The notes below the pieces were generated by a model. That model had not been told where the DNA came from, made no database searches, and was given only the letters and a program-made list of their open reading frames with translations. Position numbers and translations under genes: made by a program. From the NCBI RefSeq assembly GCF_014837235.1, contig NZ_JACYFT010000001.1, positions 310,001 through 374,000 on the forward strand: a DNA stretch of 64,000 bases. Direction: 5' to 3'. Positions within the stretch are counted from its first letter, which is position 1. Each line of letters opens with the position of its first letter. This DNA comes from Limnohabitans radicicola. Its GTDB lineage: Bacteria; Pseudomonadota; Gammaproteobacteria; Burkholderiales; Burkholderiaceae_C. Shown here one piece after another: positions 1 through 56,830 of the stretch.

Positions 1-3000
1 GTGAGCCACTGCACCACGTCGTCGGCCTGGCTTGTGTAGCCTGCGTTGTCGCAACGCTTTTTCAGTCGCTCGGCCTTGGGCGCGTCCAGCACAAAACCAT
101 CGGCGGCCAGCCATTCGAGCTGGTCGTGCAAAAAGTTGCCTGCGCTCGGGCCTTTGGCAAAGCGGTGCCAGGGGACCAAGGCGCCCAGGGGGTTTGCGGC
201 TGCAGGCAGCGCCTGCGCGTCCACGGGCGGCTCGTCGTCGGCCGGGCGAGGCGGGGCCATGTGCAGCACCGTTTGCGAAGCCAGGTCACGCGTCAGGCGC
301 GAGAAGCTGGCGATCGTCCACGACTTGTCGATGCGGGCGGTGCAGCTCAGCGCGTCGCGCAGCTCGGTGGGGCGCACGGGCCGCGCCCAGACAGTGCACG
401 GCACCTCTTCGCTCGCGCTCACCAGTTGCACCGACAAGCGCTGCTCATCTGCATCTTTTTCCAGCGCTTGCAGCTTGGACAACCAGTCGGTGGCCTCCAA
501 TGCCAAACCACCGCCCAGCAAATGGCCTGCCGCGCTGTCGTGGTTGACACAGCTTTTGCCCGAGCCGCGCGTGACAGGGCTCCAGCCCACCCAGAGCGCA
601 TGCCGCGCACGCGTGAGCGCCACGTACCACAGGCGCAGGTCTTCGCGCAGGCGGTCGCGGTCGGCCAGCTTCGTGTCGTCTTTGTCAAAGTCCAGCGTCC
701 AGTGCCGCTCGCCCTCGCCGTCGTCCAATTGCAGCACCGGGGTTTTGTGCGCTTCCATCCTGCGATGGCTGTGCGCAAAGGGCAGGCACACCACCGGGTA
801 CTCCAGGCCTTTGCTGGCGTGGATGGTGATGACCTTGACCAGGTCTTCGTCGCTCTCCAGGCGCACGGTCTGCTCTTCGCTGTCGCCTGCGCCGCCCGCG
901 TTCACCTCGTCAATCTGCTGGGCCAGCCAGCGGATCAGGGCCTGTTCGCCGTCCAGCTGGCTGCTGGCGGTCTGCAGCAGCTCGGCCAGATGCAGCACAT
1001 TGGTCAGGCGGCGCTCGCCGTCGTTCTGGCCACGCCAGCGCCCGGCCAGTTGCAGCACGTGCAGCGACTGGCGCAACATGGCCAGCACGCCCTGCTGCAG
1101 CCAGACTGTGCGCAACTCGCGCATCTGCTCGGAGCGTTGGTCCAGCAGTTCATCATCGGTGGCCAACGCGTGCAACTCGGCCAGCGACAGGCCCACGGTG
1201 CGCGTACCCAGGGCCGCGCGCACGCGGCGCATGTCCTGGGGCTCGGCCACGCCGCGCAGCCACAGGCACAGGTCGCTGGCTTCGTCGCTGGCAAACACCG
1301 AGTCGCGGTCCGACAGGTACACCGAAGCCACGCCCCGCACCCGCAAGGCCTCGCGCACGGCGTTGGCCTCCTTGCCGGTGCGCACCAGCACGGCGATGTC
1401 TTTGGCTTGCAGGGGCTGGTCGCCCTTTTCAGCGTTGACAAAACGGGCCTGCGGGTCGCTCAGCCAGACCACGATCTGCTCGGCGCACAGGGCCGACAAA
1501 TGCGTTTGCGCATCGCGCTGGCTGCGCAACGTGGCGTCGTGGACCACGGTCAGGGCTTTCACCTCGCCGTCGAGGGTGGTGAAGACCTCGTTGCGCCCTT
1601 TGGCGTCCACGGGCTGGAAAGGCAGCGGGTCTTCATCGCCGCGCCGGTAGCCAAAGGCGTCCGGCGCAATCTGGAACCAGCGGTTGACCACATCGACCAC
1701 ATCTTGGGTCGAGCGGTAATTGGTGCCCAGCACATGGTGGCGACCAGCGGTGGCGCGGCGGGCGCTCAGGTAGCTGTGGATGTCGGCGCCGCGAAAGCCG
1801 TAGATCGACTGCTTGGGGTCGCCGATCAACAGCAATGCCGTCTCTGGATCATTGGCAGAGGTTCGGTAGATGCGGTCAAAAATCCGGAACTGCAGCGGCG
1901 AGGTGTCCTGGAATTCGTCGATGAGTGCCACCGGGAATTGCTCGCGCAGGCGCTGCGCCAGGCGCTCGCCTGAATCGGGGTCGGCCAGCGCCACATCCAG
2001 GCGCTGCAGCATGTCGGCAAAACCGAACAGGCCGCTGCGCTTTTTCAGCTCGGCCATGCGCTGCTGCACATGGGTGCGGGCGTGCAGGCGGGCCGCTTGT
2101 GCGGGTTCGGGCAAGGCCTGCAGGGCAGCTTGCAGATCGGCATAGGCTTGCGATTCGGGCGGCAAGTCCACAGGCGGTTCGCCGGGTTTTCGGCATTCGA
2201 GCAGGCCTTCGGGCGTGAAGCGGGTCCAGCCTGTCTTCATGTCCGCTTGCAATACCTTGGGTTCGTCGGCACTTTGCGACCACGCTTTGAGGACACCCAG
2301 CCATTCGGCGCATTTTTTGTACGTCAGCTTGCGGCCATCCCAGCTGGACTTGTGGTGCTCCAGCTGCCCCTCGATCCAGCCCAGCAGGTTGTCGGCTTTT
2401 TCAACCCATCCCTGCTTGAGCGGCGCCAGTTGGGCATCCCGCTCGGCCAGCGCAGCGCCGAAGACCTGCGCCAGCGAGCCGGGGGCGGCGTCTGCCAGCG
2501 TTACAGGCATCAGGGCACGCATGTCCTTTTCCAGTGCGGGCACATCGCGCCAGATGCGCTGCACCTGCGCGACCAGCGCTGTGGGCATGGGGTAGAGCTG
2601 CTGACGCCAATAGTCCTGCACGGCCTCCAGCCGCAGCGCGGCTTCGTCGCCCACCAGCTGCTCTTCAAACAGGCTGCCACTGTCAAAAGCATGCTCGCGC
2701 AGCATGCGCTGGCACCAGGCGTCGATGGTGTAGACCGCCGCGTCGTCCATGGCCTGTGCGGCCAGCGCCAGCCGGTACGCCGCCTGCTCGCGGGGCTCGC
2801 CTTCGGGGTATTCGCTTTGGAGTTGCTTCAGGAAAGCATCGTCGGTTTTCGCGATGCCCCGGAACACCTGGGCCGCCTCGGTCAGGCGGGCGCGGATGCG
2901 GTCCGACAGCTCACGGGTGGCCGCACGGGTGAACGTCATCACCAGCACATCCTGCGGCAGCATGGGGCGCACGGGTGCGGTGTTCGCGTCGCCATGGCCC

Positions 3001-3122
3001 AGCACCAGGCGCACATACAGCGCGGCAATCGTCCAGGTCTTGCCAGTGCCTGCGCTCGCCTCGATCAGGTGGCTGCCCCGCAGGGGAAAACTGTGGGGGT
3101 TGAGGGTGTGCGCGGTGCTCAT
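1..3122 (-). CDS. recB: Exodeoxyribonuclease V beta subunit RecB (UvrD/Rep-type helicase), truncated at left window edge
   Basis: Reverse-strand translation from ATG at 3122 gives MSTAHTLNPHSFPLRGSHLIEASAGTGKTWTIAALYVRLVLGHGD (Walker A), then ...ALIDEFQDTSPLQFRIFDRIY... and ...VITIHASKGLEYPVVCLPF... (SF1 helicase motifs). Not in the ORF track because there is no in-window stop. No terminated ORF is listed in this frame, consistent with an open frame. Overlaps recC stop by ATGA. Confidence 0.93.
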   Translation of the reverse strand, partial: MSTAHTLNPHSFPLRGSHLIEASAGTGKTWTIAALYVRLVLGHGDANTAPVRPMLPQDVLVMTFTRAATRELSDRIRARLTEAAQVFRGIAKTDDAFLKQLQSEYPEGEPREQAAYRLALAAQAMDDAAVYTIDAWCQRMLREHAFDSGSLFEEQLVGDEAALRLEAVQDYWRQQLYPMPTALVAQVQRIWRDVPALEKDMRALMPVTLADAAPGSLAQVFGAALAERDAQLAPLKQGWVEKADNLLGWIEGQLEHHKSSWDGRKLTYKKCAEWLGVLKAWSQSADEPKVLQADMKTGWTRFTPEGLLECRKPGEPPVDLPPESQAYADLQAALQALPEPAQAARLHARTHVQQRMAELKKRSGLFGFADMLQRLDVALADPDSGERLAQRLREQFPVALIDEFQDTSPLQFRIFDRIYRTSANDPETALLLIGDPKQSIYGFRGADIHSYLSARRATAGRHHVLGTNYRSTQDVVDVVNRWFQIAPDAFGYRRGDEDPLPFQPVDAKGRNEVFTTLDGEVKALTVVHDATLRSQRDAQTHLSALCAEQIVVWLSDPQARFVNAEKGDQPLQAKDIAVLVRTGKEANAVREALRVRGVASVYLSDRDSVFASDEASDLCLWLRGVAEPQDMRRVRAALGTRTVGLSLAELHALATDDELLDQRSEQMRELRTVWLQQGVLAMLRQSLHVLQLAGRWRGQNDGERRLTNVLHLAELLQTASSQLDGEQALIRWLAQQIDEVNAGGAGDSEEQTVRLESDEDLVKVITIHASKGLEYPVVCLPFAHSHRRMEAHKTPVLQLDDGEGERHWTLDFDKDDTKLADRDRLREDLRLWYVALTRARHALWVGWSPVTRGSGKSCVNHDSAAGHLLGGGLALEATDWLSKLQALEKDADEQRLSVQLVSASEEVPCTVWARPVRPTELRDALSCTARIDKSWTIASFSRLTRDLASQTVLHMAPPRPADDEPPVDAQALPAAANPLGALVPWHRFAKGPSAGNFLHDQLEWLAADGFVLDAPKAERLKKRCDNAGYTSQADDVVQWL

Positions 3123-6100
3123 GCCTCGTCCCCCTCATCGTCTGCAGGCGTATCTGGCAACGGATCGATGTGGAGTCGCTCAGCCCAGGCTTTCAGGGGT
3201 TCGTATACCTTCTGCGCAAGGCGTTCGAACTCGCCCGTGGCCAGCAAGTCCGCCAGCGTAGGGTAGGTGCGGGCCAGGGCCGGGTCCTTGTCCTTTTCTG
3301 CACTCTTGTTGTAGTCACCGCCCTCATAGGCATCGGCCAGCGCATTGGTGTTTTTTTTGTCCTTGAGCCACTGCAAGGCCACGCCGGGCGGCAGGGGCAG
3401 CGGCCAGCGCATGCCTTCGGCCCAGGTGGCCAGCAGGGCCTGCAACTGGGCACGGGCGGCGTCTGTGTCTTGCGGTTCTGCACGCACCAAGGCATTGCGA
3501 CCCACCACCACGCACTTGCAGGGTTGATCCATGGCGGCAGCGGCCAGTGACTGCAGCCAGATGTCGATGAGTTTTTCAGGCAATGCGGTGGCCTTGCCCG
3601 CTTTCGAAATGCTGACCAGCTTGTTGGCGCGCAGGCTCAAAAGCATTTGTCCACCCTCGCCTGCCAGCAGACCGCCCAGCGCATCCTGCAAGCCAACCTG
3701 CGGCTGTCCCAGATCAACCAGCACACGCTCGGCTGCATGAGGGTAATTCTCGCGCTCGCGCCATGCAGCGGCCAGCTGGGTCTGCAGGATGTGGGTGAGC
3801 TTTTGGGCTTCGAGCGTGCCCACACCCGCCAGCGGCAAGGCCCCGGCCTCACGCAGGTGCTGCACCACACGCGCTGCATGGCTGGGCAGTTCGTCTGCGC
3901 TCAAATCCGCAGGCACGTGCTGCAGTTCATGGTCGAGCAACTGGTACAAGTCCAGCCCGCCCAAGCCAAACAGTTCTTCGTCATGCAGCGCGCTGCGCTC
4001 GTCTTCCAAATGCACCTGCAGCCGCTCTCTGAAAAACGCGCCCACAGGTTTGCGCAGGAAGCGGGCCAATTGGGCGAGCGAGATGATCGGGGCCTGCTCG
4101 TTGGCGGCCATGAGCGGCGGCAACAACGCAGGCCATCGCGGCGAGGGCGCCGCTCCCACCAATGCCCCTGTAGGAGCGGCGCCCTCGCCGCGATCCCCTG
4201 CAGCGCCAATGATTGACCCACCACCGTCGCCGCGATGGTCTTGTTGCGCCGCCCGCCATTCTTTAGCATAGGTCTGCAAACCACTGCCCGCCTCAAAGTA
4301 AGCGCGGCTGAACGGTTGCAGCGGGTGCACCGTGGTCAGGCCTTTGGCCGTGTCTTTGCCCCAGAGCAGGTCGATCTCATCGCGCAGCTGCGACACCAGC
4401 ACCGAAGGCGGTTGTTCGCTGTTGTCCCGCACGCTGCGGCCACTCCAGCTCACGTAGAGCACCTGCCGTGCCGACAACAGCGCTTCGAGCATGAGCTGGC
4501 GGTCGTCGTCGCGGCGCGAACGGTCGCCCGGACGCGTCATGCCGGGCAAGCCCATCAGGTCGAAGTCGGCACGCGGGCTGCGGCGCGGGTAGTCGCCATC
4601 GTTCATGCCCAGCAGGCACACCGCCTGGAATGGGATGGCCCGCATCGGCATGAGTGTGCAGAACGTCACGCCACCCGCCCTGAAGCGCTGCTCCAGCCGC
4701 GGCGTTTTGAGGGCTTCGAGCCAGGCCGATCGCGCCACGGCCAAGGGCACGGCCTCGGCAAAACCCGCTTCGTCGCAAGCCCGCACCCAGTCATTCAAAG
4801 CCTGATCCAGCGCTGCGAGCGCATTGCGGTCGTTGTCGTCACGCGGCTTGAACAGCGCCGCGAGCGTGGCGCGGCAACGCTCGGCCCACTGCACAGGCGT
4901 GGCGCTTTGCGTGCCGATCTGCCACCAGTCGATCAGGGCCTGCAGCAGGTGCGCCAGCGACCCCGCCAGCTCGGCGTCCAGCCCGCCCACTTCAAAGTAA
5001 GGCGATACGCCCAATGAAGCACCGTCGTCCAACGGGTCAGCACCACAGGCATACCCCATGAGCATGCGCTGCACGCCAAACAGCGCCGAATTGTCGTCCC
5101 CGCACACACCCAGGCCCAGACCTGCGCGGTGCTGCGCCGACAGGCCCCAACGGATGCCCGAGCCCGCCATCCAGCGCGTGAGCGTGGGCAGGTGTTCATC
5201 CTTCAGGCCAAAGCGGGCCGCGAGCGCGGGCACTTCGAGCAGCTCCACCAGCTCGCTCATGCGGCTGCGCTGCTGCGGCAGGGCCAGCAGCCATTGCACC
5301 GCGTGGATCAGCGGGCTGACCGCCTGGGCGCCCAGATCGGCAATGTCAAACGGGATGAAACGCGCATCGCCCCGCTTGTACTGGCCAAACACGGCGCGGA
5401 TCGCCGGGGCCATGACCTCGATGTCGGGCACCATGACCACCACGTCACGCGGCGACAGGGGCCGATCACCCGGGGTCGTGTGGAACCACTGCAGCAGCTG
5501 GTCGTGCAGCACCTCGAGTTCGCGCACCGGGCTGTGGGCCACGCTGAAGGTGACCGAGCGGTCGCCTTCGCGCAGCGGCACCGCCGGGGTGCCCGAGCTG
5601 GACGGTTCCAGATCGCGGATGCGCCGCTGCAACTGCGCCAGCAAACGTGTGCCGTCTTCGCCGGGCACATCGTCAAAAAAGTCCAGACGGTTCAGCTGTG
5701 TGAGCGTCAACGCCGCACGCACATCGTCAAACGCATCGAGCTGGCGAATGAAATCGCGCCCCTGCCGCCCCCAGGCGGCCAGCAGCGTGGGCGCGTGCAA
5801 ATGCATCTGCGCCAGCGGCAAGCCTGCCAGCGCCTCGCCCCGGTAGGCGTGACGGCGGCGCTCGGCCTGCAGCCACTCGCGTCCGTCGATGATGTCGCCC
5901 CAGTGGTACTGGCACGGGTTGGGCACGGCCAGCAGCACCTGGCTGTGCGCGGCCAGCGCCGCCAGCATCTCCAGCAGCTGCCCGGGCATGTGGCTCATGC
6001 CGAACACCGACACGCGCCGCGCCACGGGGCTCGCCAGCGGCTGACCCGACTGCAGGTGCGCCAGCGCCCGCGCATGCAGCGCCGGACGGGTGGCCTGGCG

Positions 6101-6685
6101 CTGAGTCTCGTCCAAAGTGGCCAGCACGCGCCGCCACAGTTCGGCCTGCCAAAGCTGGTCTTCGCCCAGTTCATCCTGGCCAGCGGCCTTGCGCAGCACG
6201 TTGCGCCCGGCGGTCCAGTCCTGCAGCCAGTCGGGGCGGTAGATCTGGTACTGGTCAAACAGGTCGGCCAGTCGGCTGGCCAGTTGCAGCAGGCGGTCGG
6301 GCTCGTCGCCTCTCAAGAAACCTGCCACGGGTTGGAACACCGGGTCTTGCAGACAGCCAGGCAACAAAGCCATCAGCCGCCAGGTCATGGGCAGTTTGTC
6401 CAGTGGCGAATCGGACGGCACGTTGTGCTTGCCCAGCACCTGCCGGTAGGTACGCCACAAAAATCGCGAAGGCAGCTCCACCCGCGTGGCCGCGCACACG
6501 CCGCCTTGGCGGGCAAGTTCGATCTTGATCCACTCGGCCATGCCGTTGCTCTGCACCAGCACGACTTCGCTCTCCAGCGGCAGCAAAGGGTGCGTGCGCA
6601 ACCAGCCCGTCAGGGTGTCGGCCAGCACCTCGGCGCGGTGGCTGTGCAGGGCAATGAAGCCGGGCGAAATGGTGGATGCGGGCAT
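3119..6685 (-). CDS. recC: Exodeoxyribonuclease V gamma subunit RecC
   Basis: 1188 aa ORF: MPASTISPGFIALHSHRAEVLADTL..., VVLVQSNGMAEWIKIELA, FGMSHMPGQLLEML, LLGMNDGDYPRRSPRADFDLM; adjacent to recB. Confidence 0.93.
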   Translation of the reverse strand: MPASTISPGFIALHSHRAEVLADTLTGWLRTHPLLPLESEVVLVQSNGMAEWIKIELARQGGVCAATRVELPSRFLWRTYRQVLGKHNVPSDSPLDKLPMTWRLMALLPGCLQDPVFQPVAGFLRGDEPDRLLQLASRLADLFDQYQIYRPDWLQDWTAGRNVLRKAAGQDELGEDQLWQAELWRRVLATLDETQRQATRPALHARALAHLQSGQPLASPVARRVSVFGMSHMPGQLLEMLAALAAHSQVLLAVPNPCQYHWGDIIDGREWLQAERRRHAYRGEALAGLPLAQMHLHAPTLLAAWGRQGRDFIRQLDAFDDVRAALTLTQLNRLDFFDDVPGEDGTRLLAQLQRRIRDLEPSSSGTPAVPLREGDRSVTFSVAHSPVRELEVLHDQLLQWFHTTPGDRPLSPRDVVVMVPDIEVMAPAIRAVFGQYKRGDARFIPFDIADLGAQAVSPLIHAVQWLLALPQQRSRMSELVELLEVPALAARFGLKDEHLPTLTRWMAGSGIRWGLSAQHRAGLGLGVCGDDNSALFGVQRMLMGYACGADPLDDGASLGVSPYFEVGGLDAELAGSLAHLLQALIDWWQIGTQSATPVQWAERCRATLAALFKPRDDNDRNALAALDQALNDWVRACDEAGFAEAVPLAVARSAWLEALKTPRLEQRFRAGGVTFCTLMPMRAIPFQAVCLLGMNDGDYPRRSPRADFDLMGLPGMTRPGDRSRRDDDRQLMLEALLSARQVLYVSWSGRSVRDNSEQPPSVLVSQLRDEIDLLWGKDTAKGLTTVHPLQPFSRAYFEAGSGLQTYAKEWRAAQQDHRGDGGGSIIGAAGDRGEGAAPTGALVGAAPSPRWPALLPPLMAANEQAPIISLAQLARFLRKPVGAFFRERLQVHLEDERSALHDEELFGLGGLDLYQLLDHELQHVPADLSADELPSHAARVVQHLREAGALPLAGVGTLEAQKLTHILQTQLAAAWRERENYPHAAERVLVDLGQPQVGLQDALGGLLAGEGGQMLLSLRANKLVSISKAGKATALPEKLIDIWLQSLAAAAMDQPCKCVVVGRNALVRAEPQDTDAARAQLQALLATWAEGMRWPLPLPPGVALQWLKDKKNTNALADAYEGGDYNKSAEKDKDPALARTYPTLADLLATGEFERLAQKVYEPLKAWAERLHIDPLPDTPADDEGDEA
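4135..4194. repeat. REP-like palindromic element inside recC: 22-bp perfect inverted repeat with 16-nt loop
   Basis: ATCGCGGCGAGGGCGCCGCTCC (4135-4156) ... GGAGCGGCGCCCTCGCCGCGAT (4173-4194). A second outer pair CCATCGCGGCGA (4133-4144) / TCGCCGCGATGG (about 4226-4237) flanks it. Confidence 0.85.
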
Positions 6686-6960
6686 GCAGAAGGGGTGAAC
6701 CGAGGGCGGCAGAAAGCATCAAGAATAGCCGCAATCCGCCCCGCTACAGGCGCCAGAGGCGAGCGTGTATTTGCCCGTTTTTTAAGCACCGCCCGCCGAG
6801 CGAGCAAACACGGGCCCTGGCGCAGTTGTTCATGGACTTATCCACACCTTTGGGCACGGGGTTTGGGGATACCTGCGGGGACAAGGCACCATGCGTTTGA
6901 AATCAGTTGACCGGAAACCGGACACAATCGGACCCAAGCCCCCCACCCGATGGAGTCCCC

Positions 6961-7359
6961 ATGAAACACCTGCAACACCTCGCCACCGCCTTGTTGATCG
7001 CACTGTTGATGGTGCCTGCCTTGGCGCAGCGCATGTACGACGGCAGTGGCTACCAGATCGGCCGCGTGGATGGCGAGCGTTATTACAGCGCCTCGGGCCA
7101 GCAGATCGGGCGGGTCGACGGTGAGCGCGTGTATGACGGCTCGGGGCGGCAACTGGGGCGCATCGACGGCGACAGGGTGTACAGCGCTTCGGGCAGCCAG
7201 ATCGGTCGCATTGACGGTGACCGCCTGTACAGCGCTTCGGGCTCGCAGATGGGCCGCATCGATGGCGAGCGGCTGTACGACGGCTCGGGCCGCCAGATTG
7301 GCCGCGCCGACGGTCTGCGCCGGATGCAGATGATCGTGTTCTTTTATTTCTTCATGTGA
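6961..7359 (+). CDS. Secreted six-repeat (16-aa) protein, beta-flower-like, unknown function
   Basis: Signal peptide MKHLQHLATALLIALLMVPALAQ, then six repeats of the form xY(D/S)(G/A)SGxQxGRxDGxR, then RMQMIVFFYFFM. ATG at 6961 chosen over the upstream ORF start. Confidence 0.8.
   Translation: MKHLQHLATALLIALLMVPALAQRMYDGSGYQIGRVDGERYYSASGQQIGRVDGERVYDGSGRQLGRIDGDRVYSASGSQIGRIDGDRLYSASGSQMGRIDGERLYDGSGRQIGRADGLRRMQMIVFFYFFM
7033..7320 (+). repeat. Six tandem 48-bp coding repeats
   Basis: Units at 7033, 7081, 7129, 7177, 7225 and 7273, each exactly 48 bp. Confidence 0.9.
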
Positions 7360-56750: not shown

Positions 56751-56830
56751 GCCGGGGTGAGGGTGGCGGTGCACGCCTCATGATTCGCTTCGCTCATAAA
56801 ATCGGCGCCCACAGCCACCCTCACCTCGGC
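56751..56830. repeat. 80-bp inverted-repeat element (17-bp arms, one mismatch)
   Basis: GCCGGGGTGAGGGTGGC (56751-56767) ... GCCACCCTCACCTCGGC (56814-56830). Confidence 0.8.

Follow-up and report, generated by a model that had tools for sequence, protein, structure and literature searches.

What is a long palindrome doing inside an intact recC gene, and how could it have come there? The gene (exodeoxyribonuclease V gamma subunit; 3119..6685, minus strand) lies in the analyzed window, that is, in the whole 64-kb stretch of Limnohabitans DNA, and it encodes an intact protein of 1188 aa (TIGR01450, 941 bits). The first-pass annotation of this DNA had described a perfect 22-bp inverted repeat within the gene, and the repeat is indeed exact at 4135-4156 / 4173-4194, with a span of 60 bp. 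When mismatches were allowed, the arms extended to 32 nt (4128-4159 / 4170-4201; 91% complementary) around a 10-nt loop (4160-4169), and the resulting palindrome (4128..4201) ranked first among the short-range inverted repeats of the whole window. The second-best inverted repeat, at 56751-56830, has 27-nt arms that are 85% complementary and a 26-nt spacer. The predicted folding energy of the palindrome was -41.5 kcal/mol as ssDNA (z = -10.2; none of 200 dinucleotide shuffles was as good) and -67.6 kcal/mol as RNA (z = -8.7).

The palindrome consists of two 24-bp REP units, named here family A, in which a GTRG head is followed by a hairpin, and the two heads face inwards. REP 1, GTGGGAGCGGCGCCCTCGCCGCGA (4136..4159, minus strand), has a GTGG head, differs by 1 mismatch from the REP dispersed in this genome (G000), and reads V-GAAPSPR in recC. 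REP 2, GTAGGAGCGGCGCCCTCGCCGCGA (4170..4193, plus strand), is in the opposite orientation, has a GTAG head, and matches the dispersed REP exactly; its complement in recC reads DRGEGAAPT. The pair occupies codons ~829-853, and the recC frame runs through it uninterrupted, as had been claimed, so that the segment under the palindrome (60-74 bp) encodes ~20 residues, DRGEGAAPTGALVGAAPSPRW, and the conceptual translation at the insert includes ...GAAPTGALVGAAPSPR... Five of the six reading frames of the REPs are free of stops. An outer nested pair had also been proposed. Its two sequences, CCATCGCGGCGA (4133-4144) and TCGCCGCGATGG (4226-4237), are present, and our interpretation is that they reflect a REP half-site remnant and not a second nested palindrome. 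The half-REP around CCGTCGCCGCGATGG (4222..4239, plus strand), a direct repeat (D1, 92% to 4182-4194), is probably a decayed older REP, which would be the source of this outer pair.

The dispersal of family A was determined by searching the genome with the 24-mer arm pattern, allowing ≤3 mismatches. The data showed 46 matches, compared with 1 for a reversed-pattern control, and hence the unit is not single-copy. Within the window the pattern matches the two arms and nothing else, which agrees with the earlier remark that no second copy was noticed there, and the number of matches expected in a shuffled window was 0.00. Stem variants co-vary on both sides of the hairpin (GCGGCG/CGCCGC, GCCGCG/CGCGGC, GCGACG/CGTCGC), and the copies are mostly intergenic and often paired in inverted orientation. 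A GTRG-headed inverted pair that is dispersed mostly between genes supports the assignment of the palindrome to the REP type. Most pairs of this genome have their heads outward at ~49 nt start to start, unlike the recC pair, which has its heads inward at 34 nt. The census covered all 46 listed places for this genome and samples for other genomes. Two of the 40 REP clusters tested here, those in recC and recD, were inside a coding frame and 38 were not, as judged by a codon score trained on the long ORFs of the window with 240-bp flanks, a test that can miss cases and that missed a recD insert in G022, which was revealed by the RecD alignment.

The position of the insert in the protein was then compared with the domain structure of RecC. 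The Pfam domains PF04257 and PF17946 (RecC_C) were located at residues 12-358 and 868-1109, respectively, and the REP pair falls into an inter-domain linker at residues ~815-867 (4085..4243, minus strand), between the helicase-like part and RecC_C, just ahead of the C-terminal domain where the first-pass annotation had placed it. This linker aligns with residues 811-831 of E. coli RecC (1W36_C). Because the alignment breaks where residue 810 of the E. coli protein corresponds to residue 814 here, and resumes where 832 corresponds to 868, the linker is 21 residues long in E. coli and 53 residues long here. A different, motif-to-motif measure, which is not to be read against these two lengths, put the equivalent region at a median of 38 residues for RecC from other genera and at 38-110 residues for Limnohabitans-like loci. 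In an AlphaFold2 model of modest overall quality (mean pLDDT 71, pTM 0.52), residues 816-866 were predicted as coil, with pLDDT ~30 at the minimum, the lowest confidence in the protein. At 6907-7359 (plus strand), the window also contains an ORF with an encoded tandem repeat that follows the pattern YSASGxQIGRxDGxR.

To learn how the linker differs among relatives, RecC proteins from 21 genomes of the same genus were aligned and the linker DNA was read. The segment is not conserved: in relatives the site either lacks an insert or holds a decayed copy or an unrelated REP, as expected for the insertion that had been suspected. Family A is found in the linker of this genome and of G021, and in decayed form in that of G023. 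Family B, GGAGCGGTCTCCGACCGCGA, is present in G027, G013, G022, G007, G026, and G017, and family C, GATCGCCACGCTTCGCTCGCGATGACG, the sequence of which fits the CGTC superfamily (PMC3733652), in G032, G028, G010, G004, and G025. An array of family D, GTGGGAGGCCGCCCCCGCGGCCGAA and GTGGGAGCGAGCCCCTGCTCGCGAA, occupies the linker of G024. The linkers of G034, G002, G016, and G011, and also of the distant congeners G029 and G020, are without a REP. Families B and C are dispersed as well, with genome matches of 146 (G027), 42 (G022), and 33 (G028) for B, and 94 (G025), 68 (G027), 39 (G028), and 32 (G004) for C, which is absent from this genome. Neither a clean target duplication nor an exact empty site for recC was recovered from the DNA alignment of the window with relatives including G021 and G034, the latter having a linker that is too diverged. 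When the five linker states were placed on a tree of RecC from which the linker had been left out, at least 10 changes were required. As read from these alignments, different REPs have repeatedly occupied one RecC linker among sister species, with turnover of the family at the site, and the linker is an insertion hotspot that is hypervariable and REP-bearing in relatives.

REPs were also found in other genes. In recD of the same operon, outside the window (G000:C1:308060-308083, L015), a single family-A REP lies in frame, reading ...FLNPVGAAPSPRSGDD... / ...NPVGAAPSPRSGDD... in the frame that the forward REP also uses in recC, and a REP pair is located directly 3′ of recD. The corresponding RecD loop contains family A in G000 and G021, B in G027, G022, and G028, and D in G024 and G032, and it is short or empty in four clade-2 relatives (G013, G007, G026, G017). 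In G020 (L129) a D-type REP pair is located at recD codons ~121-136, away from the hotspot used in other species. The inter-domain linker of MutL carries B in G027, G022, and G028, and D in G024; REP-like matches with other stems, which were weaker, occur in G007, G017, and G034. By contrast, no REP was found in recB (1..3132, minus strand, running past the window start), either here or in the relatives' operons scanned. The in-gene REPs were those in recC, recD, and mutL in G027 (3 of 39 clusters), in the same three genes and rmlB in G022, and in recD, mutL, and rmlB in G028. Outside repair genes, B was found in rmlB (G022, G028) and C in a capD-like gene (G025); the names of mutL, rmlB, and the capD-like gene rest on recognized sequence motifs rather than HMM matches. 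Two in-gene matches of the census were discounted, one in G021 (L252) as doubtful, with weak coding scores, and one in G022 (L282) as likely antisense.

Because RAYT genes are established partners of REPs (PMC2817692, PMC8266576), the surroundings of such genes are relevant to the origin of the insert. RAYT genes with flanking B REPs occur in G028 and G022 and ones with flanking D REPs in G060 and G032, and other RAYTs in the genus have REPs of further stems beside them. The two proteins scanned with NF047646, one B-flanked and one D-flanked, scored 136 and 146 bits (cut-off 80). Thus, the suggested check for RAYTs was positive for GTRG REPs in the genus, and for family A no flanked RAYT was found either in this genome, searched with PF01797 and a G028 RAYT, or in G021. 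This genome has a single Y1 transposase, which scored 76.3, below the cut-off of 80, and is without flanking A REPs. A Y1 transposase-like protein at G000:C1:549614-549946 (L031) is flanked by AATTAATTGGGGTCTGACCCC-like repeats, which are not GTRG REPs; such proteins are mostly ~240 aa long, and in the genus 43 of 45 genomes have PF01797 matches. Since the search gave no RAYT with flanking family-A REPs here, the A copies of this genome may be orphans, with loss of the cognate RAYT being possible.

The explanation that very probably accounts for these data is that a RAYT-mobilized REP dimer inserted in frame in recC and persisted there owing to the tolerance of the linker. A RAYT, which is a HuH single-strand transposase, would most likely have acted on the REP hairpin and moved the pair into the gene. 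For a landing in frame, the length of the element must be a multiple of three and the frame that is read must contain no stop. The pair of inverted GTAG-type REPs (REPIN or REP dimer) would then be translated as part of RecC in a flexible linker, with a presumably near-neutral effect on RecBCD. Insertions elsewhere in genes would be purged, whereas RecC, RecD, and MutL would keep those that hit their disordered linkers, and the survivors could later decay or be replaced by the REP family active in the lineage.

It could also be considered that the linkers spread between species chiefly through homologous recombination of recC alleles, with few true insertions. This reading, which we view as a less than even, though real, prospect, bears on the origin of the pattern among species and is compatible with insertion by a RAYT. 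Some B inserts have spacers in common among species, which suggests that some of these linkers spread by homologous recombination or descent and not by fresh insertion. G013 and G027, which belong to different RecC clades, contain a nearly identical B spacer, TGGRTCACCYGAAACATCA, and both have clade-2-like downstream sequence, and several forks of the tree are open. On the other hand, four unrelated families still demand at least four insertions, and the A insert of this genome matches its own dispersed REP. Hence, at least four insertions into the RecC linker took place, and the number beyond four is unsure, because of the open forks and because some linkers probably spread by recombination. 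The recC linker of G013 (L115) contains a near-perfect B REP pair, and the only two B matches of that genome are both located there, so this pair could be either a relic kept in coding sequence or something that recombination brought in recently. If the former, REP families that a genome has otherwise lost may survive as relics in its coding genes.

Retention by tolerance could further be contrasted with the proposal that repair genes are preferred or selected targets of REPs beyond the tolerance of their linkers, with altered RecBCD or MutL being possibly advantageous, for example in a mutator or hyper-recombination state, as speculated previously (PMC3733652). The restriction of in-gene REPs to few genes, with repair genes making up three of the four gene families (recC, recD, mutL, rmlB), is consistent with such targeting, and so is the same bias in the 2013 survey of other bacteria (PMC3733652). 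However, every site is a linker or loop, which tolerance explains, rmlB and the capD-like gene carry REPs too, recB of the same operon never carries one among the relatives scanned, and the events across species are not independent. We therefore regard this proposal as improbable, and it appears quite improbable that the RecC, RecD, and MutL linkers are preferred or selectively retained landing sites through which REP turnover tunes RecBCD and mismatch repair across the genus.

It is very unlikely that the palindrome has been maintained for a role as a regulatory or structural element of the recC message or DNA, acting on translation, RNA stability, or gyrase binding, with its translation incidental. 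The very stable RNA hairpin in the middle of recC and the persistence of the near-perfect B palindrome in G013 could be explained in this way, but the palindrome matched no Rfam family of known structured RNAs, and the palindromes of G023, G026, and G034 are decayed or absent, so the pairing is not conserved. An origin of the inverted repeat by chance, or from coding sequence that is GC-rich and of low complexity, can be dismissed, since nothing beyond the high G+C content speaks for it, and the shuffled expectation of zero, the hairpin z-score of -10.2, and the 46 genomic copies speak against it.

The insertion of a tolerated REP dimer can be compared with several known systems. Similarly to REPINs with RAYTs (PMC3116915, PMC2817692), the elements described here have a GTRG head, an imperfect palindrome, inverted pairs, mostly intergenic dispersal, and, in relatives, a RAYT flanked by the same REP, while the recC copy differs in being intragenic, in its inward heads at 34 nt, and in that no matching RAYT was found here. 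Rickettsia palindromic elements, which the first-pass annotation had cited, are an apt precedent for selfish palindromes in frame in protein genes, although this is an analogy only, as they belong to other bacteria and most copies here are intergenic; intragenic repeats of R. conorii were equated with RPE-4 and RPE-6 (PMC3733652). The closer precedent is provided by GTAG and CGTC REPs, which were reported inside genes in 2013, many of them in replication and repair genes including recBCD (Di Nocera et al., PMC3733652). In that study intragenic REPs were often dimers encoding 20-30 residues, two Xanthomonas species had different REPs at about the same recB site, both linker or loop tolerance and non-fortuitous targeting were proposed, and the occurrence in repair genes was judged hard to call fortuitous (PMC3733652).

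The recC insert belongs to this already known kind because intragenic REPs in repair genes were reported there, and it shares with them an intact ORF, an in-frame position, and absence from some homologues. The same two superfamilies are found inside coding genes, including repair genes, in both cases. Limnohabitans is not mentioned in the main text of that paper (PMC3733652), and the genes here are recC, recD, and mutL; in congeners, a single RecC linker has been used in turn by four families, which include both superfamilies. Tolerance and targeting were hard to tell apart by test in 2013 from scattered species, while the question becomes testable in a single genus whose RecC, RecD, and MutL sites are empty in some members and contain decayed, fresh, or replaced inserts in others, and the Limnohabitans series offers a natural set of linker insertions for RecBCD biochemistry. 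Compared with the 2013 survey, what is new here is the host genus, the details of recC, recD, and mutL, the dense within-genus series, and the repeated turnover at one site.
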